DNA of 61,418 bases, taken from assembly GCA_011087955.1 (NCBI GenBank), contig JAALKR010000010.1, positions 1 through 61,418 on the forward strand, in the 5' to 3' direction. Positions 32,030 through 51,341 of this stretch are shown piece by piece. Numbering within the stretch: position 1 is the first letter of the stretch; every line of letters starts with the position of its first letter. This DNA is from Oligoflexia bacterium. Lineage in GTDB: Bacteria > Bdellovibrionota > UBA1018 > CAIPTA01 > JAALKR01. The translations under genes and the position numbers were made by a program. The notes below the pieces were generated by a model. It was not told where the DNA came from, made no database searches, and saw only the letters and a list, made by a program, of their open reading frames with translations.

Positions 32030-32329
32030 ATGGAAGAGGCGATGCTTGAGGAAGGTACACGAAAACCAGTAGCAAAAATTTGTCCAAAGCGAAGGCGTAA
32101 ACAGTCTGGACAAGCAATGATCGAGTACATACTAATCTTTGTCGTTAGCCTTGTATTTGCGCGCTATGTATTCTTTCATGAAGAATTTGGCATCAATGCC
32201 ATGTTAGATCGCATGATGATGCGTGTGGGGACCAATCTAGAGCAAAATTTAAAAACAGGAACGGCTCCAGGAGGAGTTGGCAAAGGTTCTTTAGCACCGT
32301 TTGCGGGAACGAATACTTGGAACAACTAA
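32030..32329 (+). CDS. Second Flp-like pilin or pseudopilin
   Basis: 99 residues. A longer basic leader ends SGQAMIEYILIFVVS, with the cut after Gly27 and Glu32 at +5, followed by a hydrophobic helix and a Gly/Thr-rich tail. It has the same class III processing signal as the first pilin but a longer mature part, so it may be a minor pilin. A second ATG at 32042 is possible. Its 3' end overlaps the peptidase gene by 13 bases. Confidence 0.8.
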   Translation: MEEAMLEEGTRKPVAKICPKRRRKQSGQAMIEYILIFVVSLVFARYVFFHEEFGINAMLDRMMMRVGTNLEQNLKTGTAPGGVGKGSLAPFAGTNTWNN

Positions 32330-32859
32330 AGGCCATAGCTATAGCTGTCGCAATCTTTGGAGGCGTCTATGATCTCTTCACGCAGCGTATTCCCAATTGG
32401 TGGACTTTTCCTGCTATGGGAGTTGGTTTGATTGCTAGCGCTTGGATGGGCTTTAGCGAAGGCAATGTCTTAGTTGCACTCGGGCTATCCACCCTGGGAA
32501 TTATCGTCGGATTTGTGCTCTACTTCCCCATGTATGCGCTGGGGATCATGGGCGCAGGGGATGTTAAGTTGCTGATGGCTATCGGCTCCTTTGGTGGACC
32601 TAAATTTGCCTTTTATGTCGCCCTATTCTCGATTATTGTTGGCGGAATCTATGCACTGATTGACGTAATTATGGTCGGACGATTTGTTCCTTTCATGAGA
32701 GAGTTATTTCGTTGGTTGCGTCCAGTCTTTTTCCGAGGCTATTTACGGGAAAATCCAGATATCGATAAAACGCGAAAATTTTCCTTTGGAGCATCCGTTG
32801 CTATCGCGACTGGGATTGTTATTTGGCTAGAGCATTCAGGAGGGTTGCAATGGCTTTGA
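32317..32859 (+). CDS. cpaA: Prepilin peptidase TadV/CpaA
   Basis: 180 residues, about six membrane helices, no N-terminal methylase domain. The two catalytic aspartates of the type IV prepilin peptidase family are visible: Asp19 (GVYDLFTQRIPNWWT) and Asp82 (GAGDVKLL). It should process the five class III signals encoded around it. The start is TTG 32317 inside the previous gene, so its yield may depend on coupled translation. Confidence 0.9.
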   Translation: MEQLKAIAIAVAIFGGVYDLFTQRIPNWWTFPAMGVGLIASAWMGFSEGNVLVALGLSTLGIIVGFVLYFPMYALGIMGAGDVKLLMAIGSFGGPKFAFYVALFSIIVGGIYALIDVIMVGRFVPFMRELFRWLRPVFFRGYLRENPDIDKTRKFSFGASVAIATGIVIWLEHSGGLQWL

Positions 32860-33232: not shown

Positions 33233-33910
33233 ATGACTAACGCGAGACAGACAAAAACTAGAAGGAAGTTTCTGGAGGAATCTGGACAGACCTTCATGGA
33301 GTTCCTAATTGTTGTGATGGTGATTATTGCTCTGATTTTCGCATTTATTCAGATTTGCTGGGCAATGGCTTGGGGCCACTATATTCATTACTCGACTTAT
33401 ATGGCTGCGCGGGCTTACCTTTCTGGCCAACAGAATCAAGGCCAACAGATCGAGGCCGCTTCAAGCGTCCTAAGATCGATGGTGAAGCGTCCTGGTACTG
33501 ACGAGGATCTCCTGGGTAATATAGCGCCGTCTAGAGTCGGAGACGCGCGAGACATCCCTGGAGATGAGCCTGTGGCGGGCAGCTTTATCGGCACACACCC
33601 CGTAGCGGAGGGTTTTGGTCTAGACCAACGATTTTTCTCTTGGGCTGAAGGAGTTCAGTATAATTTTAAATTCAAGCTATTTATTCTTCCTCTAGCCTGG
33701 TGGTTGAAGCGGGACGAGGGGAAGATAATTGAGATTGGCCCTCAAGGCAGTAGTCAGAGTGTAGTCTGGACTGGCTTTATCGACTTAGCTTCTGATGCCT
33801 TCCTTGGTCGGGATAGTACGAACGAAGAATGCCGCACTTTTTTGTTGAGACTTTCTGGCCTAAACCCCAGGAGCGATCGCACCGATTACATATATGATAA
33901 CGGGTGTTAG
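33233..33910 (+). CDS. tadE: TadE-like minor pilin
   Basis: 225 residues. The leader ends ESGQTFMEFLIVVMV with cut after Gly18 and Glu23 at +5. After the helix comes the AARAYLSGQQN segment typical of TadE-family proteins, then a periplasmic domain. TadE/TadF proteins are minor subunits or assembly factors of Tad pili. It has no strong ribosome site. A 22-base duplication straddles its stop. Confidence 0.82.
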   Translation: MTNARQTKTRRKFLEESGQTFMEFLIVVMVIIALIFAFIQICWAMAWGHYIHYSTYMAARAYLSGQQNQGQQIEAASSVLRSMVKRPGTDEDLLGNIAPSRVGDARDIPGDEPVAGSFIGTHPVAEGFGLDQRFFSWAEGVQYNFKFKLFILPLAWWLKRDEGKIIEIGPQGSSQSVVWTGFIDLASDAFLGRDSTNEECRTFLLRLSGLNPRSDRTDYIYDNGC

Positions 33911-33936
33911 ATGCGAGGATAACAGGTGCTAGATGC
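33903..33936. repeat. Degenerate duplication straddling the tadE stop codon
   Basis: GGTGTTAGATGC (33903-33914) recurs as GGTGCTAGATGC (33925-33936), 22 bases apart. The first copy holds the TAG stop of tadE and the second holds the ATG of the next gene. Confidence 0.7.
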
Positions 33937-34424
33937 ATATATTTCGTAAACGAATAAAATTTATAAAGAATGAGCGAGGGCAAGCTCTCCTGGAGTTTAT
34001 TTTAATGCTGCCCATGGTTTTAGCCTTCTTCTGGTACACGCTGAAGATTAATGTGGCAATCAATAAATCGATCGTTGCGCAAAAGCACCTGCGTTCGCAG
34101 CTTTTTATGAAATTACTCAATCATCGAGATTATCCGGTTATCGATGAGTACCAACGGAACCCCTCGGACCGTTCCGCCTATTTTATGGGTGTTTCCAACG
34201 AAATTACGACGACAATAGGGTCATTTTCTCCTGCACCGACCGTTCAGTTGGGTATCGGAACGAGGCCAAAAACATTTCCAGGATCACGTGATGAGCCCGG
34301 TGAAGCCGAAGCTGGTTGGCTTCGCCAGAATGTACGTATTCGCAGTGCCTACGGTATTTGCACTTCGCGCAAGCCATTTGCCGATAACACATTGGGCTCC
34401 TTCTGTGGGGAGGTTAATCCATGA
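33933..34424 (+). CDS. Second TadE-like protein
   Basis: 163 residues. A basic leader ends ERGQALLEFILMLPMVL with cut after Gly16 and Glu21 at +5, a TadE-type signature, followed by a helix and a periplasmic domain rich in basic and aromatic residues. It probably works with the preceding TadE-like protein as a TadE/TadF pair. It overlaps cpaB by four bases (ATGA), which indicates coupled translation. Confidence 0.78.
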   Translation: MHIFRKRIKFIKNERGQALLEFILMLPMVLAFFWYTLKINVAINKSIVAQKHLRSQLFMKLLNHRDYPVIDEYQRNPSDRSAYFMGVSNEITTTIGSFSPAPTVQLGIGTRPKTFPGSRDEPGEAEAGWLRQNVRIRSAYGICTSRKPFADNTLGSFCGEVNP

Positions 34425-35311
34425 ATAATCGCGCGTTTACAATGTCATTTATTTTAGCAGCCTTCGCTGTCATGATGGTGCACTCCTATGTGGAGTCCAA
34501 TCTGGAGCGACAAAAGGAAAAATTTGGGCAGATGGTTACTGTCGTCGTTGCTAAAGAAAATATTAAAGAGCTAGAGACACTTGACCAAATTAATCTTCAC
34601 ATCATTGAGATGCCGAAAAAATTTGTGCAACCAGGTGCGGGCAGGAAATTAAAAGATTTCGAAGGTGGTCTTGCAATTGCGCCCATTCAAAAAGGTGAAC
34701 AAATAACTAGAACAAAAGTGACAGTGATTGGCTCGCGAACAGGATTATCACGACAAGTGACTGTTGGTCGTCGAGCGATAACGGTTCGGGTTGATGATGT
34801 GAAAGGTGTGAATCGACTGATTAAGCCTGGCGATCGAGTCGATGTAATTTCCATTATTGACTTAGGTAAAGGTGATCCATTTTTGGTTGAAGCAAAAACA
34901 GTGTTGCAAGATGTATTGGTTTTATCGACGGGTAAATTAATTACAAATACAGTGCCTGGAATTCTAGAAGCGGATCCGTATCGGAGAGGAAAACGGGCTA
35001 AGAAGGTTTCCAATTTGACGGAATATACAAGTTATAACTCCGTGACTCTCGAAGTAGACCCGATCGAAATGCAGCAATTGTTTTTGATTGAGCAACGTCT
35101 TGGTGGTGTGTATCTTGCGCTACGAAATAACGACGATAACGCGAAAGAGAATCTGGATACAGCCACAGTTCGTGAAATCCTCGGAAAGAATTCAAAGTTA
35201 GCGCGCGGCTCAGCCCGTGGCCAACAGGACGCTGCTCGAAAGCGCGCTTTAGCGAGCCCTGGTGGAGCTCGTGGTAGAGGCTTCCAGCCAACGAATCCGC
35301 GTACTCGTTAA
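34421..35311 (+). CDS. cpaB: Tad pilus assembly protein CpaB (RcpC)
   Basis: 296 residues. An N-terminal membrane helix (about 8-24) is followed by a SAF-type domain (VTVVVAKENIKELETLDQ) and the conserved GDRVDVISI segment, typical of CpaB/RcpC, a periplasmic partner of the secretin. The C-terminal 40 residues are Arg/Ala/Gly-rich. GGGGAGG lies ten bases before ATG 34421. Confidence 0.9.
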   Translation: MNNRAFTMSFILAAFAVMMVHSYVESNLERQKEKFGQMVTVVVAKENIKELETLDQINLHIIEMPKKFVQPGAGRKLKDFEGGLAIAPIQKGEQITRTKVTVIGSRTGLSRQVTVGRRAITVRVDDVKGVNRLIKPGDRVDVISIIDLGKGDPFLVEAKTVLQDVLVLSTGKLITNTVPGILEADPYRRGKRAKKVSNLTEYTSYNSVTLEVDPIEMQQLFLIEQRLGGVYLALRNNDDNAKENLDTATVREILGKNSKLARGSARGQQDAARKRALASPGGARGRGFQPTNPRTR

Positions 35312-35426
35312 TATTTGTACCTGTTGCCGTGAAAAGGCTCACGTAGCGATGAGAAAACTAACAGCGCAAGTGGTCGAAATCACCAAAAAAATCAAAAGAG
35401 CTTAGCCGTTTTTGATAACGTTATAT

Positions 35427-37001
35427 ATGGGGTATTTCTCGCAAAGCCGCAATATTCAAAGCTGCACTATTTGGATCACGTTCGTGGCAGTCTTTGCCGC
35501 GTTCTTCTATGGCATGCTTGCTTCGGCACAAATTGCTCCGAAGGAAGATGATAACGACGAGGTGCGAGAAATTTCCGTTGGCTCTTTAGACACGATCGAA
35601 TTTGACTTTCAGCCGAGTAAAGTCGACCCAGTCAAAAAGGGAATTTTGCGCATTGAACGAATTGCCACGGAACTTGCAGTGCAAATCATTCCGGTTAAGA
35701 AGGGTGTGACGGACGTTGTAATCTACGACTTGCAAGGTAAGGTTCGCCGTAAGGTTAAGTATATTGTCACGGCTACGGATTTATCGCTCCAAGTTACACA
35801 AATGCGTCGCTTGCTCGATACTGTTGAAGGACTAACGATTGCTTCCGTAGGCGACAAGATTGTAATTGATGGTGAACTTGTCGTTCCCAAAGATCTTGAT
35901 CGAGTCCTACGTGTAGTAGAAGCTTTCGGTGGCTGTAAAGGGAATAATATTTGTCTCGTGCAACTTTCTAAAGTTTCCCAAAGGGCGATCGGAAAAAGAA
36001 TCCAAGACGAAATTAATCGGCAGCCTGGTTCGGTGAACGTAACGGTGCGTGTGGCAAACGATACTTTCTTTCTGGAAGGAGTGGTGGACTCAGAAGCTGA
36101 TAAAACTAGAGCCGAAGACATCGCAAAGACGTACGTGCCGGAAGTATTGGTTTCTCAATCTGTAGCTCAAGGCGTTCTGAAAGAAATCAAGAAGCAAGCG
36201 ATTCGCAATTTGATCGATGTAAATGAAACACCTCCACCGCCTCCACCGAAGACCGTTCGAGTAACCTTCCATTTTGTGGAGATCGCCAAGGAATATTTCA
36301 ACATCGCCTTCCTGAAGTGGGCACCTACGATTAGTGAGGATGCGGGTTTTAGGTTTGGTGTGACGAACACAGGCCAAGGAGGCGCTAATTCCGACGGATC
36401 CCTAGTTGCAACTATTTCAAGTTTAATTCCACGTTTACAAAAAGGCACGAATGGTGGCTATGCACGAGTGCTCTTTTCAGCTGTAGGGATTGGCCTAGAT
36501 AAGGAGCAGATTTCCATTAGTCGGCAGGATCAAGTTCCGTTTATTGCCCAAGTTGTAAATGGAGTTCCAGTTACTCAGAGCCAGCCAGTTGGTATTTCCC
36601 TAGCCGTTAAGCCTGAAATCCAAGATAACGACATAGTTTTCTTGCGCGATGTGGAGTTTAATTTTTCTGCAATTTCTGGCGCCGGTGCCGGTTCCCAGCC
36701 GGCGGTTCGTAATACGGCGATTAAGAACCAAGTCTCAGTGCGCTCCGGTGATTCCGCAGTATTAGGTGGTCTTATTTCCAATAATATGGCGCTTGATGTG
36801 GATAAGGATCCAGAGCAAGCAGGTGAAGGTGCTGGCAGTGCGATCTTTACTCTTCTACGGTCAAAAGCGTTCCGCCGGAATAAATCACAGTTTGTTGTTT
36901 TCATCACTCCGCAGATTATTTCTGATGCTTCGAAAGGCACGGAAGATATTAAGAAGAAAATTATCGGAAATAAGAAACGTAAACGGAGAATATATCGCTA
37001 G
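35427..37001 (+). CDS. cpaC: Tad pilus secretin CpaC (RcpA)
   Basis: Outer-membrane secretin channel through which the pilus exits. Signal peptide (core VAVFAAFFYGMLASAQ), then pilus-assembly N-domains and a BON-like segment (about 170-250), a short poly-Pro linker TPPPPPPKTVRV and the secretin domain with ending QFVVFITPQII. About 524 residues from ATG 35427; a TTG five codons earlier is possible and neither has a strong ribosome site. Confidence 0.9.
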   Translation: MGYFSQSRNIQSCTIWITFVAVFAAFFYGMLASAQIAPKEDDNDEVREISVGSLDTIEFDFQPSKVDPVKKGILRIERIATELAVQIIPVKKGVTDVVIYDLQGKVRRKVKYIVTATDLSLQVTQMRRLLDTVEGLTIASVGDKIVIDGELVVPKDLDRVLRVVEAFGGCKGNNICLVQLSKVSQRAIGKRIQDEINRQPGSVNVTVRVANDTFFLEGVVDSEADKTRAEDIAKTYVPEVLVSQSVAQGVLKEIKKQAIRNLIDVNETPPPPPPKTVRVTFHFVEIAKEYFNIAFLKWAPTISEDAGFRFGVTNTGQGGANSDGSLVATISSLIPRLQKGTNGGYARVLFSAVGIGLDKEQISISRQDQVPFIAQVVNGVPVTQSQPVGISLAVKPEIQDNDIVFLRDVEFNFSAISGAGAGSQPAVRNTAIKNQVSVRSGDSAVLGGLISNNMALDVDKDPEQAGEGAGSAIFTLLRSKAFRRNKSQFVVFITPQIISDASKGTEDIKKKIIGNKKRKRRIYR

Positions 37002-37021: not shown

Positions 37022-39319
37022 ATGGCTGGACATATTATCGCAATAGTAGGTGGAAAGGGCGGCGTTGGAAAATCCGTTTTTTCTGCTAACCTTGCGCTTG
37101 CCTTTCTTAAAGAATTTGGCATGCGTTCCCTTCTGATTGACCAAGACATGTCCGCTTGCGGTGACCAGAATCTTATCTTTGGTATTAAGCAGGGAAGATT
37201 GTTAGTTGATGCTGTAAACCACGTAGGCCACTACGACACAAATGCAATGCAGAAGCTCGTTACTCAGCACGCAAACGGCTTGCATGTGATCTCTGCTCCG
37301 AAAACCTCTAGTGAGGCCTCTAAAATTTCTCCGGACGCCTTGGGAAAGTTCTATAAAGGTGTACGCAATCTCTATCCGATTGTTGTTGTAGATTGTGGTT
37401 CGCGCTTAGACACCTGTACTATAAAGGCAATGGAATTTGCCACGAGTATCTTTGTTGTGACTATTCCAGATATTCTCGTTATGCACCAGACGATGCGTAT
37501 GGTTCAAGATATTAACGAGAATATGTTCCCAAAAGAGATTATTCAAGTGGTGGTGAATCGTTTTTCTGGCAATGCAGCTGTAAATTCATCGACGATTCAA
37601 AGAAATTTAGGGTGCCCAATTTTGGGAGTAATCCCGGATGACCCGCAGGCAAATAATACGGCTCTTTCTCAAGGTAACCCAGTGTTAGTTTCTGTGCCGA
37701 ATGCTTCTTCGACTAGAGGTTATCACGAGTTGGTACGGAAAATTCAGCAGCAGAATCTATTGACAAAGTTAGCTCAGGTGAAAAAGCCAAGGAGGCTTGG
37801 AAAGAAAGCAGCCACTGAAGTTAATGCGGCAATTGCAGAAAAAAGTGTGCCTACAGAAAAATCTAGTCTCCGTGGAGGCTCTACCGATGTGATTGATACA
37901 CGCTCCGCCTTAAAACTTCGTGTACACAAAGAACTCGTTGAACGGGTTGACTTTAAGAAAGAAGGTTCTTCAGAGGCAGAAAAGGCTCGACTACGTGAGA
38001 AATGCAAATCAACCGTTGTTGACGTTTTAAATGGGGAAGATATCTCAGTCGTTGCTAAAGGTAGGGAAGAAATGCAGCGCTTGGTGAAGGAAATTCTTGA
38101 CGAGGCATTGGGGCTTGGTGCGCTCGAAGACCTACTTGCGGACAGAGCAGTGAACGAGATCATGGTGATTGCGCGAGATCGAATTTATTGTGAACGAGCT
38201 GGTAAAAATTTTCTCTCCAAAACCACCTTTTCATCTGATCAACAGCTGATGAACGTGATTGAGCGGATTGTGATGCCTTTAGGTCGAAGAATCGATGAGA
38301 AGTCTCCTCATGTGGATGCTCGTCTTCCCGATGGCTCTCGAGTGCATGCCATCATTCCTCCACTTGCGATCAAGGGGCCGACGCTTACCATTCGGAAATT
38401 TCCATCGGAACGCTTGACGTGGAAGCATTTAGTGGGGTTTGGGTCAATGACCACAGAGATTGCAGATTTTTTGCGAGTCTGTGTAGAGGCGCGACTCAAT
38501 ATTATCGTAGCCGGGGGTACTGGTTCTGGTAAGACAACCTTGTTGAACGTTTTATCTAACTTTATTCCGACAGGCGAACGGATTATCACCGTAGAGGATG
38601 CGGCAGAGCTGGATTTGGGACAGGATCACGTGGTCCGCCTTGAAACTCGTCCAGCCAATATTGAAGGCGAAGGAGAAGTTTCGATTCGTGAGTTAGTGAA
38701 GCAAACATTGCGAATGAAACCGGATCGAGTGATCGTAGGTGAGTGTCGTGCCGGTGAAGCGCTCGATATGTTACAGGCGATGAACACTGGTCACGATGGT
38801 TCCCTAACAACAGTCCATGCCAATACTCCGAGAGATACGATTGCCCGACTAGAAACTCTTGTAATGATGGCAGGGATGGGGTTGCCAGTTAAGGCAATTC
38901 GGGAGCAAATTTCTGGCGCAGTAAACTTGATTGTACAGCAGTCGCGACTTTCCGATGGTTCCCGTAAAATCACTCATATTACCGAAGTTGTTGGGATGCA
39001 GGGAGAGACAGTAGCTTTGCAGGATGTATTTATTCATGAGCAATCCGGATTAGATAAGCGGCGAAAGATTATTGGTAAGTTCGTACCTACTGGCTTTATT
39101 CCAAAATTTGTGGAGCAAATGGAAGCCAAAGGCTTGAAAATTCCACGTTCATTATTTTCTAATACTCCAGAGCAGAACAAGGAGGGGAAACCAAAACCAG
39201 GTGCTAAGCCAGTCGTCAAATCGGATGCAAGACGAGGAATTAAGCCAGGTGCTAAGCCCGACTCCAAGCCTCGTGCCGCTGGTAGCGGTACACCACCAGC
39301 GAAAGCAGGAGGCATGTAG
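37022..39319 (+). CDS. Fused TadZ/CpaE ParA-like domain and TadA/CpaF ATPase
   Basis: 765 residues joining two Tad proteins that are normally separate. Residues about 1-245 are a MinD/ParA-type ATPase with a deviant Walker A GGKGGVGKS (10-18) and DQDMSACGDQN, as in TadZ/CpaE, which places the pilus at a cell site. It has no N-terminal receiver domain. A charged linker (about 250-340) leads to a secretion ATPase of the CpaF/TadA type with P-loop GGTGSGKTT (498-506), DRVIVGECRAGEAL and the His-box TVHANTPRDT, which powers assembly. The C-terminus is a Lys/Pro-rich tail with two KPGAKP repeats. ATG 37022 follows GGAG. Confidence 0.9.
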   Translation: MAGHIIAIVGGKGGVGKSVFSANLALAFLKEFGMRSLLIDQDMSACGDQNLIFGIKQGRLLVDAVNHVGHYDTNAMQKLVTQHANGLHVISAPKTSSEASKISPDALGKFYKGVRNLYPIVVVDCGSRLDTCTIKAMEFATSIFVVTIPDILVMHQTMRMVQDINENMFPKEIIQVVVNRFSGNAAVNSSTIQRNLGCPILGVIPDDPQANNTALSQGNPVLVSVPNASSTRGYHELVRKIQQQNLLTKLAQVKKPRRLGKKAATEVNAAIAEKSVPTEKSSLRGGSTDVIDTRSALKLRVHKELVERVDFKKEGSSEAEKARLREKCKSTVVDVLNGEDISVVAKGREEMQRLVKEILDEALGLGALEDLLADRAVNEIMVIARDRIYCERAGKNFLSKTTFSSDQQLMNVIERIVMPLGRRIDEKSPHVDARLPDGSRVHAIIPPLAIKGPTLTIRKFPSERLTWKHLVGFGSMTTEIADFLRVCVEARLNIIVAGGTGSGKTTLLNVLSNFIPTGERIITVEDAAELDLGQDHVVRLETRPANIEGEGEVSIRELVKQTLRMKPDRVIVGECRAGEALDMLQAMNTGHDGSLTTVHANTPRDTIARLETLVMMAGMGLPVKAIREQISGAVNLIVQQSRLSDGSRKITHITEVVGMQGETVALQDVFIHEQSGLDKRRKIIGKFVPTGFIPKFVEQMEAKGLKIPRSLFSNTPEQNKEGKPKPGAKPVVKSDARRGIKPGAKPDSKPRAAGSGTPPAKAGGM

Positions 39320-39322
39320 GTT

Positions 39323-40201
39323 ATGTTAAGCGATTTAATGGAGCCGATAACACTAGCTATAATCGTCGGGATTATTGTTTTTGTAGTTTCTTATATGCAC
39401 GCTCGTCGTTTTCTAGATTGGCTACGCTGGAAATCGATTGGCGCAAGAGATGACATTGTAGAGACATTGGAAAAAATGTTTATCGAGATCTCTCCCAATA
39501 AAGTTCTTCTCTATATGACTCTCTCAGCGATTGTTCCAGGCATTTTAGTGTTCTTACTAATTTTGCCACAATTCATTCCAGCACTTTGCTTTGGATTGGT
39601 GATTGCTATCTTTGGCTGGCATATTCCAAAGATAGTTGTCCGGAGAATGTTTGCGCAGCGAATGAATAGATTCAATCTACAAATGATTGATGGCTTGAGC
39701 TTGATGGCCAACGGTATGAAGTCCGGCCTATCCATTATTCAGGCTATGGGTCTTGTAAAGGAGGAGATGCCAGACCCATTGTCGAAAGAGTTTGATTATG
39801 TTTTACAACAGAACCGTCTTGGGGTGAGCGTGGAAGAGGCTTTCCAAAATCTTGCTAAGCGCATTCCTTCCGAAGATGTAAATATGTTTGTCACCTCTAT
39901 CATCATCCTCAAAGAAACAGGTGGAAATCTGGCCGAGACATTCGAGACAATTGTGCACGTTATTCGAGAGCGTTTAAAGGTGCAGCAGAAGATTGCTGCC
40001 ATGGTTGCCCAAGGTGTCGCTCAGGGGGTGATTGTATTCTGTATGCCTTTTGGCTTAGGTTTGATGTTCTACCTAAGTGACCCCAAGTTTATTGAGCCTC
40101 TTTTTTCGACTCCCCTGGGATGGCTGATATCAGCCGGTATTCTCACACTCCAATTTGTAGGCGGATTTGTGATTCTAAAAATTGTACAAATTAAAGTGTA
40201 G
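39323..40201 (+). CDS. tadB: Tad pilus inner-membrane platform protein TadB
   Basis: 292 residues with a helix near 10-26, a pair near 62-98, a T2SSF cytoplasmic domain (MIDGLSLMANGMKSGLSIIQA, then ETGGNLAETFETIV) and a last helix pair. This is the layout of TadB, which is stacked on the ATPase ring. TadC, its usual partner, is not seen anywhere in the window, so one protein may serve both roles. It starts four bases after the ATPase gene. Confidence 0.88.
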   Translation: MLSDLMEPITLAIIVGIIVFVVSYMHARRFLDWLRWKSIGARDDIVETLEKMFIEISPNKVLLYMTLSAIVPGILVFLLILPQFIPALCFGLVIAIFGWHIPKIVVRRMFAQRMNRFNLQMIDGLSLMANGMKSGLSIIQAMGLVKEEMPDPLSKEFDYVLQQNRLGVSVEEAFQNLAKRIPSEDVNMFVTSIIILKETGGNLAETFETIVHVIRERLKVQQKIAAMVAQGVAQGVIVFCMPFGLGLMFYLSDPKFIEPLFSTPLGWLISAGILTLQFVGGFVILKIVQIKV

Positions 40202-40282
40202 AAGTGGTAGGAGCGCAGGGATTTTTTTGCTTATCATTAAGCACCCTATTTGGGATGCCGAAAAGCATATGTGAGGTTAGAA

Positions 40283-42091
40283 ATGACTGCTAATCGAGGA
40301 ATGAGCACCAATCAAAGACCAAGATTCATTGGAACACTAATTTTTGGAATAGCTCTGACGACCTTTCTGGTAGCGAATCTGGCGGACGCCCTAGTTGCAA
40401 TCACCAACGGAAATTATTTTACTGGCTTCGTAGATTTGAATCACCCGAATGCAGGACCGGGGTTTCAGTTAAAGCTAGAGCGTACTTATAACAGCCGCTC
40501 TCAATATAACGGCATTTTTGGATACGGTTGGGGTACTGAGTTTGAATCGTTTTTGGTGCCGGCTGCAGATGGTTCGGTGGTCATTCAGGAGTCTGGTGGC
40601 GGTGAGAAGACTCGTTTTACCCCTAAGGGTTTTTCAAATGGGGATATGAACAAGTTTATTACCGAGCTCATCAAAGCTAAGCAGAAAAAACAAGGTGGAG
40701 GATTCAATGCGCAAGCCTATACGGCTAAGTTGAAAAAGGACGCAGATTTCCGTGATGAGGAAGGTAGAACACTTGGCGTTATGCCAATGGTAAAAACTGG
40801 GACGAAGCTGTACTCCACTCAGCGTGGGGATAAGCAGGTAGTAACTGTGATCAAAGGTGGGTTTGTACGTGAATTTGGCACGGGCAAAATGGTTTATTTC
40901 ACGAAAAGAGCAAGCGTAAGAGATTTCGGTGTGGAAGTGTCTCGGCAGCGTGTGGTGAAGGGTGTATACAAGATCACTCGATTTGTGGACAAAGTACAAG
41001 GAGTCGACCTTAGTTTCAAATATGATGAAACAGGGAAGCTTGTGGCGATTACGGACGGAGGTAAGCAGACTTTGCGTTTTGTAACAAATACAGATGGCAA
41101 GGTCAAACAGGCTACGGATCACTTAGGCCGTGCTTCTACGTATAAGTATTGCCGTTCAAGGCGCTATAATAGTGCGCAAAAGTGCTCTGCTGGGGATTTG
41201 GTCTATTCTAAAGACGGTGCGGGTAATGAATTTATCTATGAGTATGACAATATTCATAACTTAACAAAAATCAAGTACTCAGATGGCTCTTTTGAGGAAA
41301 TCTCTTATTATCCAGCTAGCCCTCCAGGTGAGGGTGGTGCCAAAGAAGTGAAGCTTCGTCGTGGCGTGAAGATGAAGTACACCTATTGGTCAGATCCAAA
41401 AGATAAGCGTATGCATTTCAAAACAACGGTGGAGACGACCTATCGAAGTGGCCGGAAAACTATCGCTTCCTACGAATATTGGCGAAAGCGTCGCTCCGAT
41501 GGCACAGTCTATAAGCAAAAAATGGCGACCAATATTAATGGCGATAAAACAGTTACGACCTACAATGAATGCTGTGGGCAACCACTAGAAATCAAACGCT
41601 CCAGTGGTACGACTACTTTTGCGTACTACGATGATACTGGGTTGCCAAAATTAAAGAATTCGCCAACGGAAAAAGTAGGTTGGAAATACTCGAAACAGTT
41701 TCATGGTAAGGTTACTCAAGTGGCAGTGTTAGATAAGACTAAGGGTCAAAAGAAGGCACTGATTACAAAGTATCAATACAATGCAAAAGGCAATTTAGTG
41801 AGAGCCAAGACTTCTGACGGTAGAGGCGTTGGATTGCTTTATGATAGTAAAAACCGAATTAAGGCAATGATCGATCAAGAAAAGCGCAAAATCACCTTTA
41901 CATATAACAGCCTTTCGAAACCAGTAAAAATCACGCAGCAAGGAGTTGGAGGCATCACAGTAGAGTACGATGGCAAGGGTAGTATCAAAGAAGTAAACTC
42001 AAAAGGTGGACGTCAAATCGCTCTCAGCGTGACAGCAGCCTTTCAGAACCTCTTAGAGATTATCAAGCCTGCTGGAGTTCAGCCGTTATAA
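40283..42091 (+). CDS. Secreted YD-repeat (RHS-type) protein
   Basis: 602 residues from ATG 40283; a TTG 11 codons earlier is also in frame. A signal-like helix is followed by an RHS-type N-terminal domain (GFVDLNHPNAGPGFQLKLERTYNS, FGYGWGTEF) and then several YD-like repeats such as FKYDETGKLVAITDGG, YEYDNIHNLTKIKYSDGS and YQYNAKGNLVRAKTSDG. RHS proteins build a hollow shell around a C-terminal effector or act in surface contact. No typical RHS core end (…DPxG…) or toxin domain is seen, so the role is unclear. It lies 82 bases after tadB on the same strand. Confidence 0.75.
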   Translation: MTANRGMSTNQRPRFIGTLIFGIALTTFLVANLADALVAITNGNYFTGFVDLNHPNAGPGFQLKLERTYNSRSQYNGIFGYGWGTEFESFLVPAADGSVVIQESGGGEKTRFTPKGFSNGDMNKFITELIKAKQKKQGGGFNAQAYTAKLKKDADFRDEEGRTLGVMPMVKTGTKLYSTQRGDKQVVTVIKGGFVREFGTGKMVYFTKRASVRDFGVEVSRQRVVKGVYKITRFVDKVQGVDLSFKYDETGKLVAITDGGKQTLRFVTNTDGKVKQATDHLGRASTYKYCRSRRYNSAQKCSAGDLVYSKDGAGNEFIYEYDNIHNLTKIKYSDGSFEEISYYPASPPGEGGAKEVKLRRGVKMKYTYWSDPKDKRMHFKTTVETTYRSGRKTIASYEYWRKRRSDGTVYKQKMATNINGDKTVTTYNECCGQPLEIKRSSGTTTFAYYDDTGLPKLKNSPTEKVGWKYSKQFHGKVTQVAVLDKTKGQKKALITKYQYNAKGNLVRAKTSDGRGVGLLYDSKNRIKAMIDQEKRKITFTYNSLSKPVKITQQGVGGITVEYDGKGSIKEVNSKGGRQIALSVTAAFQNLLEIIKPAGVQPL

Positions 42092-42118: not shown

Positions 42119-42208
42119 CCTGCTAAATGCACTTTTTAGCTGTACAAGAATTAGGCAGATACACCTAAACTTGTCAGTTCGATTTTTAAATTTCCGTCTA
42201 AGTTGTTG

Positions 42209-42261
42209 GTTCTATTAGTGTGTGAGTGGCATATGCTTTGCAGTATGAAGAGCAATAGAAC
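42209..42261 (+). promoter_or_regulatory. Inverted repeat beside a ribosome site
   Basis: GTTCTATT (42209-42216) pairs with AATAGAAC (42254-42261), and the right arm abuts AGGAG (42263-42267) used by the small secreted protein at 42275. It could modulate translation, though the loop is long (37 bases), so confidence is low. Confidence 0.3.
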
Positions 42262-42274
42262 TAGGAGAAAAGAT

Positions 42275-42523
42275 ATGCGTATTATTAAGATCGTGGCTTT
42301 ATTGATTTTTTTATCAGCAGTTCCTGCATTGGCAGTTGACAGTAGTGGACTAGGGCCTAAGGAAGACTTTGAAGCGTCTTGGGAAACTTGTTGCAATGCT
42401 GAAGTTGCTGCGAGTTCGGCTCAATGTAATTTTTGGGCAGACTCCAAAGCTGCAGAGCTTTTAGGAACACGCGCCCCTACAGAAGACGAGCGCGAGAAAG
42501 TATTGAACACTCGAGGCGAGTAA
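42275..42523 (+). CDS. Small secreted Cys-containing protein
   Basis: 82 residues. A clear signal peptide (MRIIKIVALLIFLSAVPALA) precedes a mature peptide of about 62 residues with adjacent Cys residues (ETCCNAE) and another in AQCNFWAD. No family recognised. AGGAG (42263-42267) supports ATG 42275; upstream in-frame starts are not needed. A strong terminator closes it. Confidence 0.8.
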   Translation: MRIIKIVALLIFLSAVPALAVDSSGLGPKEDFEASWETCCNAEVAASSAQCNFWADSKAAELLGTRAPTEDEREKVLNTRGE

Positions 42524-43219: not shown

Positions 43220-43497
43220 TTCTGTTCTTTCGGGGCTTTCGAAGGAGCAGGATTAATCCACATCGCCAATTTTCTGCGAGCCGTATTGAAAGCTTCTGGG
43301 ATTTTATGCCGTAGTTTGTCCGTTTGAGATTCAAACGTATTTTTCAATTGTTGTACAATGGCGCCCGTCCCTGTGCGCTCCACCACATGTTCCATATGAC
43401 CCTGTAGAGACTTACCCTCAAATCGCCAAGGACTCATTACTAGTGTTGCAGCGAAAATCATACCCAAAAAAAATAACATCCTAGCCAGTCTCAACAT
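43216..43497 (-). CDS. Short single-helix membrane protein
   Basis: 93 residues: one N-terminal membrane helix (about 5-22) and an amphipathic helical tail with KxxFESQTDKLRHKIPEAF-type spacing. No family recognised. It starts inside the end of the receiver-like gene (17-base overlap) on the same strand, so the pair is probably translated from one message. Confidence 0.55.
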   Translation of the reverse strand: MLRLARMLFFLGMIFAATLVMSPWRFEGKSLQGHMEHVVERTGTGAIVQQLKNTFESQTDKLRHKIPEAFNTARRKLAMWINPAPSKAPKEQN

Positions 43498-43861
43498 TGA
43501 ATTCCTCCAGGTATTTCTCCACTGTAAAATAAAACTCTGCGTCTGAAAATGGTGCAGTCAAAAGGTCACGGGCTCCAGATCGAATCACCTGCTCGCGAAT
43601 TACGTTTGTCGTGATATCAGTAAAAAGCACCACCTTGCGCTTGCTATCTACCGTCACTATACGCTTACAAGTCTCATAACCCGGTTCATCCATCAATTGG
43701 AGATCGATGATGGTGAGGTGAGGATCAAAGTACGTCAAATTTGGTAGAATTTTTTCACCTTCATGCATGACTTGATACTCAATGTTCATGTCGAGTAAAA
43801 GGTTGCAGAGTCGCTTTTCATAGTGTTTGCGCTTTGTAATGATAAGAGCCTTAAAGAGCAT
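43481..43861 (-). CDS. Stand-alone degenerate response-regulator receiver
   Basis: 126 residues with the alternating beta/alpha pattern of a receiver domain. The acceptor-position Asp53 is kept (LTIIDLQLMDEPGYE) and VLFTDIT supplies the switch Thr. However, the N-terminal acidic pair is replaced by TKRK (9-12) and the conserved Lys of the KPF motif is Ala103 (LLTAPF). Metal binding and phosphorylation are therefore doubtful. No output domain. Not linked to a kinase nearby. Confidence 0.75.
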   Translation of the reverse strand: MLFKALIITKRKHYEKRLCNLLLDMNIEYQVMHEGEKILPNLTYFDPHLTIIDLQLMDEPGYETCKRIVTVDSKRKVVLFTDITTNVIREQVIRSGARDLLTAPFSDAEFYFTVEKYLEEFNVETG

Positions 43862-49965: not shown

Positions 49966-50976
49966 TTAGTCATACAGTTTTTTGATCTGCATTTGCAACC
50001 AAGGAGCAAGATCTTCCCTGGAATCAGCAATTGTCACTCCGGCCATTTCGGTCAATCCGATTGCCGTAAGGGCAGTACGAGGATTTAGATCTGCTCCTTG
50101 TATATAAATCCATGTACGTTTTGAGTTTTGTGCACCAGTCTTTATAAAATGCTGAAAAAATATATCAATACGGGGAGGTAACGGCATTGCCACTACACCG
50201 AAATCAATTGCTAGAATAGAGTGTTTCATTTGCTCAGCGGAGCGAATAATGTCTTCTAAGCTGGCAATTATGTCTACCTCACAATAACGGCTTTCAATCT
50301 TGCCTTTGACCATTTTTGCGAAGTTACTACTGGGACTATATAATGCTACATGCTCTGGAATTAGATCAACATAGGTTATGCGTTGGCCGACGACATTCTC
50401 AAAAATTGGCTGTGGAATCAGTATTGTAAGCTTTTCTTTTGTATATGGCTCTAGTGTCAAAGTAGATAGCCACACAATATATTCTTTCTTTGAGATGAAG
50501 AACTCTTCAGAAATTTTATCATCAGGAAATAAATTTTTTTCGAAGTTCATGACCAGATGGAGGTTAGTGCTGGATAGATGGCGAATAGAACGATCGAGTG
50601 CGCCAGTGAATTGATTGCTAATCTCATCGAACGCATCTGCAGTAATATTTAGAAACTCTTGGGATTCAATTTTCGATTTAATTACTGATTCAGACTGTTG
50701 CCGAAGATAACTACCAAGAACAATTGCTGAATTAAATTCAAAAAACATATAGATTTTATCATTGGGCTTGTTCTCAATGTCAATATTGACGATAACGGAC
50801 TTTTTTTTATAAACCCTTAAGTAAGTGGCGATGGGCATTGAGAAGGCTTCAAATGGCGCCAATTTTATGGAATTTCCCATCAATATAAGCTGCAGGATGT
50901 TCTCTAGCTCAGTAGCTAACCTTTGCGAAAGCTCTTGGTTTTGTTTCGTAGGAGTTATTCGAATCGGTGGGAGCAT
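49966..50976 (-). CDS. CheX-like phosphatase domain fused to a degenerate receiver
   Basis: 336 residues. The N-terminal half (about 20-170) resembles CheC/CheX/FliY-family domains and has an ExxN motif, DEISN (Glu118, Asn121), in a helix like the one that dephosphorylates CheY-P. The C-terminal half (about 205-335) has receiver-like strands and helices, including SPSSNFAKM, then ILAIDFGVV with Asp258 at the acceptor position. However, no N-terminal acidic pair is visible. It overlaps the cheY stop by one base, so the pair is translated together; CheY is the likely substrate. The assignment is by pattern only; alignment could overturn it. Confidence 0.6.
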   Translation of the reverse strand: MLPPIRITPTKQNQELSQRLATELENILQLILMGNSIKLAPFEAFSMPIATYLRVYKKKSVIVNIDIENKPNDKIYMFFEFNSAIVLGSYLRQQSESVIKSKIESQEFLNITADAFDEISNQFTGALDRSIRHLSSTNLHLVMNFEKNLFPDDKISEEFFISKKEYIVWLSTLTLEPYTKEKLTILIPQPIFENVVGQRITYVDLIPEHVALYSPSSNFAKMVKGKIESRYCEVDIIASLEDIIRSAEQMKHSILAIDFGVVAMPLPPRIDIFFQHFIKTGAQNSKRTWIYIQGADLNPRTALTAIGLTEMAGVTIADSREDLAPWLQMQIKKLYD

Positions 50977-51341
50977 TACTTACCAAAAAACTGATTTAAA
51001 ACATCTTTTAGTTGCTTTGCAGAGAATGGCTTAGTGAGAACTTTATGTGCTCCGGCGTCAATCATTTTTTGCTGCATCTTAGGGGAGCTTTCCGTCGTAA
51101 TCATAACGACAGGAAGGCTTTTAAACTTTTCTCTAATCACCTTTACTAACTCAATGCCATCAATCTCAGGCATGTTTACGTCCGATAGAACTAAATCAAT
51201 GTCTCCTTTGGCTATTGCTGCCAAGGCCTCTTTGGCGCTAGCAGCCTCTACCAGGTCAAGTTTCGTGTACCCAGCCTGTCGTAACAATTTGGCCATCATC
51301 ATGCGCATGGTTTCCGAGTCGTCTACTACAATGATTTTCAT
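50976..51341 (-). CDS. cheY: CheY-like single-domain response regulator
   Basis: 121 residues, one complete receiver domain: Asp7-Asp8 for metal binding, Asp54 as phospho-acceptor (LVLSDVNMPEIDG), Thr82/Thr83 and Lys104 (LTKPF). CheY-type proteins carry the signal from CheA to a motor or other target. It is divergent from the MCP-CheW-CheA operon across a 90-base gap that should hold both promoters. Confidence 0.9.
   Translation of the reverse strand: MKIIVVDDSETMRMMMAKLLRQAGYTKLDLVEAASAKEALAAIAKGDIDLVLSDVNMPEIDGIELVKVIREKFKSLPVVMITTESSPKMQQKMIDAGAHKVLTKPFSAKQLKDVLNQFFGK

Follow-up and report, generated by a model that had tools for sequence, protein, structure and literature searches.

A TadZ-type ParA domain fused to the TadA/CpaF pilus motor across Bdellovibrionota

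The window, a stretch of 61,418 nucleotides from an Oligoflexia bacterium (assembly GCA_011087955.1, contig JAALKR010000010.1), contains a Tad pilus operon in the order flp-cpaA-tadE-cpaB-cpaC-fusion-tadB-RHS, which is syntenic with the Bdellovibrio hit locus (Table 1). Placement of Tad pili is attributed to the TadZ-type ParA/MinD ATPase, and their extension and retraction to the TadA/CpaF ATPase. In this operon the two ATPases were found in a single open reading frame of 765 codons (778 aa from stop to stop), with an AGGAG-type ribosome site upstream of the ATG. Matches to a FliA-type promoter of the operon did not exceed chance expectation.

Table 1. Tad operon genes and parts of the fused protein, in positions of the window.
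Feature	Position	Strand	Basis
Flp major pilin, GQTTTEY motif, 62 aa	31757..31945	+	Translation; Pfam Flp1_like 3.1e-10
Prepilin peptidase CpaA/TadV	32317..32859	+	Peptidase_A24 3.4e-18
TadE-like minor pilin 1	33233..33910	+	TadE 3.4e-4, slightly under cut-off
TadE-like minor pilin 2	33933..34424	+	Position and orthologues
CpaB/RcpC	34421..35311	+	RcpC 3.2e-22; TIGR03177 above cut-off
Secretin CpaC/RcpA	35412..37001	+	Secretin 9.4e-15; BON 3e-6
Fused ParA/TadZ-like and TadA/CpaF ATPase gene, 765 aa	37022..39319	+	ORF; Pfam; phylum orthologues in one frame
ParA/MinD ATPase domain of TadZ type, without REC, residues 1-244	37022..37753	+	Pfam; 3ea0 sequence and fold match; profile boundaries
Deviant Walker A GGKGGVGKS, signature and catalytic lysines present, residues 10-18	37049..37075	+	Sequence
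Linker, predicted mostly disordered, basic start, residues 245-287	37754..37882	+	Profile boundaries; pLDDT
CpaF NTD1, three helices, residues 288-363	37883..38110	+	CpaF profile alignment; predicted helices; layout of PMC11300603
CpaF NTD2 and RecA-like CTD, residues 364-715, Walker A 498-506	38111..39166	+	T2SSE; 8rjf fold match; motifs
K/P/A-rich low-complexity tail, predicted disordered, residues 716-765	39167..39316	+	pLDDT about 30
Platform protein TadB	39323..40201	+	T2SSF 3.3e-21; Bd0110 orthologue position
RHS/YD-repeat protein, Bd0109 orthologue by position	40250..42091	+	RHS_repeat 5.9e-16; DUF6531

Of the phylum loci with sufficient flanking sequence, all except one had the RHS/YD-repeat gene directly behind tadB, as did Bdellovibrio bacteriovorus HD100; the gene is a phylum-level component of the Tad operon. 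The RHS gene of HD100 is Bd0109 (PMC3818213), which has been reported as likely essential. A small secreted-looking protein without a Pfam match is encoded after the RHS gene at 42203-42523 (+), at the place taken by Bd0108 in HD100. TadC is absent from the operon. The genome encodes only one further single T2SSF-type protein, a TadC candidate on contig C34, and in HD100 the TadC Bd0470 likewise lies away from the locus (PMC6561027). Three further CpaF-type ATPases were seen in the 1.8 Mb window genome (G000; C34:14130, C12:15438 and C10:17412). None carries a ParA domain, and the C10 protein carries an FHA domain.

An initial annotation of the window had read a MinD/ParA P-loop and a secretion-ATPase P-loop in one continuous frame. 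Both were present at exactly the residues given, GGKGGVGKS at 10-18 and GGTGSGKTT at 498-506. The Pfam search placed a ParA/MinD domain at the N-terminus (residues 4-214; CbiA 7e-18, AAA_31 1.8e-12) and T2SSE at the C-terminus (residues 364-640; 1.7e-61), in keeping with the two ATPases proposed. The best PDB sequence match of the N-terminal part was 3ea0, a Chlorobium ParA-family ATPase (5.9e-19), and Foldseek returned the same structure (TM 0.91, 1.9 A). The motor half matched TadA/CpaF 8rjf with 48% identity over 415 columns (E 9.3e-49; TM-score 0.83 by target length), and has a T2SSE/VirB11-type RecA domain with invariant Walker A, Asp/Walker B and His boxes. As judged from these motifs, both ATPase sites of the fusion are intact. 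The fusion scored below the cut-off of NCBIfam TIGR03819 for TadA (313.9 vs 373.15 bits); this is a hypothetical-equivalog model for conjugal-transfer-associated TadA, and the miss bears on that subgroup and not on CpaF. The K/P/A-rich tail is missing in most relatives.

The fused form was not a peculiarity of a single genome. Of 290 Bdellovibrionota genomes drawn from across the phylum, 272 matched the fusion at E 1e-150 or better. Among about 160 matches listed, nearly all began at residue 1-4 and continued in one frame to residue 713 at least, and the others were cut at one end. Both halves always lay in a single frame in the Bdellovibrionota loci examined. When 16 weak or missing cases were opened, two proved to be complete fusions; the others included family f11, contig ends and a scaffold gap, and no true split gene was found among the cases inspected. 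The window belongs to a draft assembly in 45 contigs, in which an assembly or sequencing error might have joined two genes. However, the fusion is present in hundreds of independent assemblies, including a complete genome of one contig (G111; 3,782,950 bp), and we consider the probability of such an artefact negligible. Since the one-frame architecture recurs across the phylum, chance, a frameshift and chimeric assembly are excluded. The remark that these activities are usually encoded separately held as well: most other phyla tested carried the two parts as neighbouring but distinct genes.

An AlphaFold2 model of the fusion was built from 20 fused relatives. Both domains were predicted with confidence, and pLDDT fell below 50 at residues 258-291 and in the tail from residue 716. 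The pTM was 0.49, so that the mutual placement of the domains is not predicted. The 90-residue linker proposed at first shrank on inspection. Profile boundaries and predicted helices left a mostly disordered linker of about 43 residues, and the next approximately 75 residues were assigned to NTD1, because the model shows three helices (293-308, 318-337 and 348-363) between the linker and the CpaF core. In the window protein, the helix that follows ParA is only weakly amphipathic, with a moderate hydrophobic moment; it is thus a weak candidate for a membrane-targeting helix like the C-terminal amphipathic one expected of TadZ/CpaE. A disordered linker, variable in length and sequence, could be a site at which the single chain is cut, giving ordinary separate TadZ-like and CpaF proteins. 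Yet the linker stays short in other phylum members (27-51 aa), its KKP start is conserved in most of them, and the fusion has been kept phylum-wide with no genuine split form among the cases opened. Cleavage is thus quite improbable in our judgement.

The same fusion is present in HD100, where Bd0111 has been recorded in the open literature as "TadA". The published bd0111 primer (PMC3818213) matched genome G111 exactly, and all six published bd0109, bd0110 and bd0111 primers checked fell in the expected genes of the G111 locus. The bd0111 frame encodes 753 aa with both domains. In HD100, Bd0111 has been named TadA ATPase, Bd0110 TadB, Bd0112 RcpA and Bd0113 RcpC, and the Bd0111 protein has been detected by mass spectrometry (PMC5430801). 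In the open-access literature, to which the search was largely confined, we found no description of the fusion. Neighbours of Bd0111 in the hit locus have been linked with predation and with growth mode. Because Bd0111 is the fusion and lies in this locus, the fused motor is a candidate part of prey invasion.

The proposal that a TadZ/CpaE ATPase was joined to TadA/CpaF stood in part: a TadZ-type ParA domain is joined to the motor, but not a complete TadZ/CpaE, since REC is absent. With a standalone TadZ as query and in the ParA tree, the ParA half was nearest to TadZ among ParA proteins. When a standalone REC-ParA TadZ was searched against 114 phylum genomes, the best matches of its ParA part were mostly fused genes and never REC-attached, and no separate REC+ParA TadZ was seen in these genomes. 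One candidate for a separate TadZ (G027:C61) proved to be a receiver-bearing histidine kinase. No other TadZ-like protein was found in the window genome, which is 88% complete, and its own MinD/ParA-type proteins showed 23-26% identity over most of the ParA domain. In 52 of 53 fused proteins, 0-39 residues precede the ParA domain. The N-terminal extension of standalone TadZ has at least 126 aa, except in one protein truncated by a contig end. By these lengths and matches, the ParA part of the fusion is without the N-terminal (atypical) receiver domain of TadZ/CpaE.

Stand-alone REC genes were observed in the window at 43481-43861 (-) and 50976-51341 (-). Such genes lay 3-16 kb from the fusion on the same contig in approximately 22 genomes of many families, as a raw count. 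That they represent the split-off receiver of TadZ is unsupported: they are CheY-like and mutually divergent, and some adjoin chemotaxis-looking genes. It is conceivable that a receiver acts in trans from a stand-alone REC gene.

The ParA half might be a passive scaffold or remnant that anchors or stabilises the motor hexamer only, with no role for its ATP cycle. Family f11 (L147, L149, L150 and L151, from genomes G089, G085, G060 and G068) is still fused, with ParA shortened and a P-loop of plain type that lacks the signature lysine, for example GTPSSGKT or GIQGSGKS. Here the ParA half is eroding naturally while the fusion stays. Since f11 keeps the fusion without this lysine, a complete ParA cycle may be dispensable in some members. 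The Walker A motif is also degenerate in some fusions outside Bdellovibrionota, and TadZ has been described with low ATPase activity (PMC6668835). On the other side, both Walker A lysines were present in 43 of 43 phylum members vs 17 of 41 standalone TadZ proteins, a far higher share, although the 43 are related and their counts are not independent. Three aspartates of the ParA fold, D40, D42 and D124, are also nearly invariant across the fused proteins. A passive ParA half therefore seems unlikely to us.

Outside the phylum, six Omnitrophota records also had one-frame fusions, as did one record each of Acidobacteria, Elusimicrobia, Eremiobacterota and a further bacterium. In the ParA tree, Bdellovibrionota and Omnitrophota formed a group with the Acidobacteria record and with that of the further bacterium (SH-aLRT 95), and the Elusimicrobia and Eremiobacterota fusions lay on long branches. 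For neither half was a topology that keeps all fused rows together rejected (p-AU 0.66 and 0.72); these values permit a single origin of the fusion without proving it. An independent report (PMC10066038) found TadB and TadC of Omnitrophota (Velamenicoccia) to cluster with Bdellovibrionales. In each of the 41 unfused pairs examined, tadZ lay directly before tadA on the same strand, so a fusion requires only the loss of the stop between them, and the tails of the pairs summed to about the length of the linker. We believe that the fusion probably arose when the stop codon separating neighbouring tadZ and tadA genes was lost, together with REC. The pairs were in frame with each other in 31 of 41 cases, but tblastn retrieval favours such pairs, and this count was not used as evidence.

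In Caulobacter, CpaF is a hexameric motor that powers both extension and retraction (PMC11300603). Six CpaE dimers have been modelled in situ around the CpaF hexamer, a model in which REC is suggested to join one dimer to the next and which has no solved CpaE-CpaF contact (PMC13170226). Against this background, we consider it fairly probable that the fusion is a Tad (type IVc) pilus motor in which a TadZ-type ParA/MinD domain forms the N-terminus of TadA/CpaF and does the job of the CpaE/TadZ ring in cis. The CpaF part would form the usual hexamer and drive the TadB/TadC platform. By analogy with the solved CpaF hexamer, one ParA domain per subunit would be flexibly tethered from NTD1, giving six per hexamer, the possibility raised in the initial annotation. 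These domains may pair in an ATP-dependent manner, across neighbouring subunits or with membrane partners, and the pairing would dock the motor at the platform or position the machine. A fixed 6:6 ratio, without REC-mediated ring contacts, would replace the separate CpaE/TadZ ring; the fused value is our inference, and the Caulobacter model gives 12:6. The tether would take over the ring contact, with which the loss of REC fits. Stoichiometry and mechanism of the fused motor are both inferred here.

More tentatively, Bdellovibrionota and Omnitrophota may share a distinct Tad lineage, in which the motor incorporates the TadZ ring at 6:6, the tether replaces the REC ring, the motor reads the nucleotide state of ParA, and the two are placed together. 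If true, the motor itself would sense the state of the ATPase with which it is placed. Two ATPases in one protein at a fixed ratio offer a natural test case for the coupling of ParA-like TadZ/CpaE to the Tad motor. The one-chain form fixes contacts and ratio, and a single protein lets the interface, the stoichiometry and the need for REC be tested.

Several known systems resemble the fusion in part. FHA-CpaF fusions of Myxococcota, Pseudomonadota and the window genome (C10) likewise join an extra N-terminal module to the CpaF motor, but that module is a phosphopeptide-binding FHA domain and no ATPase. A scan of Myxococcota and Pseudomonadota records (several of L057-L107) confirmed the FHA domain at the CpaF N-terminus. 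Similar N-terminal CpaF extensions were seen, as extensions alone, in Verrucomicrobia/Lentisphaerae records of the same set (several of L057-L107). Bd0111 is an orthologue with the same CpaB-CpaC-fusion-TadB-RHS neighbours as in the window; it differs in sequence (48% identity to the window protein) and has been annotated as TadA without mention of ParA (PMC5430801, PMC3818213). Caulobacter CpaF (8rjf, 8rkd) shares NTD1, NTD2, CTD, the catalytic motifs and the operon context. Its NTD0, which is disordered and dispensable (PMC11300603), has its position taken in the fusion by the ParA domain and the linker. TadZ/CpaE (3ea0; Eubacterium rectale TadZ) has the same ParA fold and the same gene order beside tadA. 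The fusion differs from it in lacking REC, in not being a separate gene, and in its intact Walker A, the second lysine of which has been lost in many standalone TadZ proteins.
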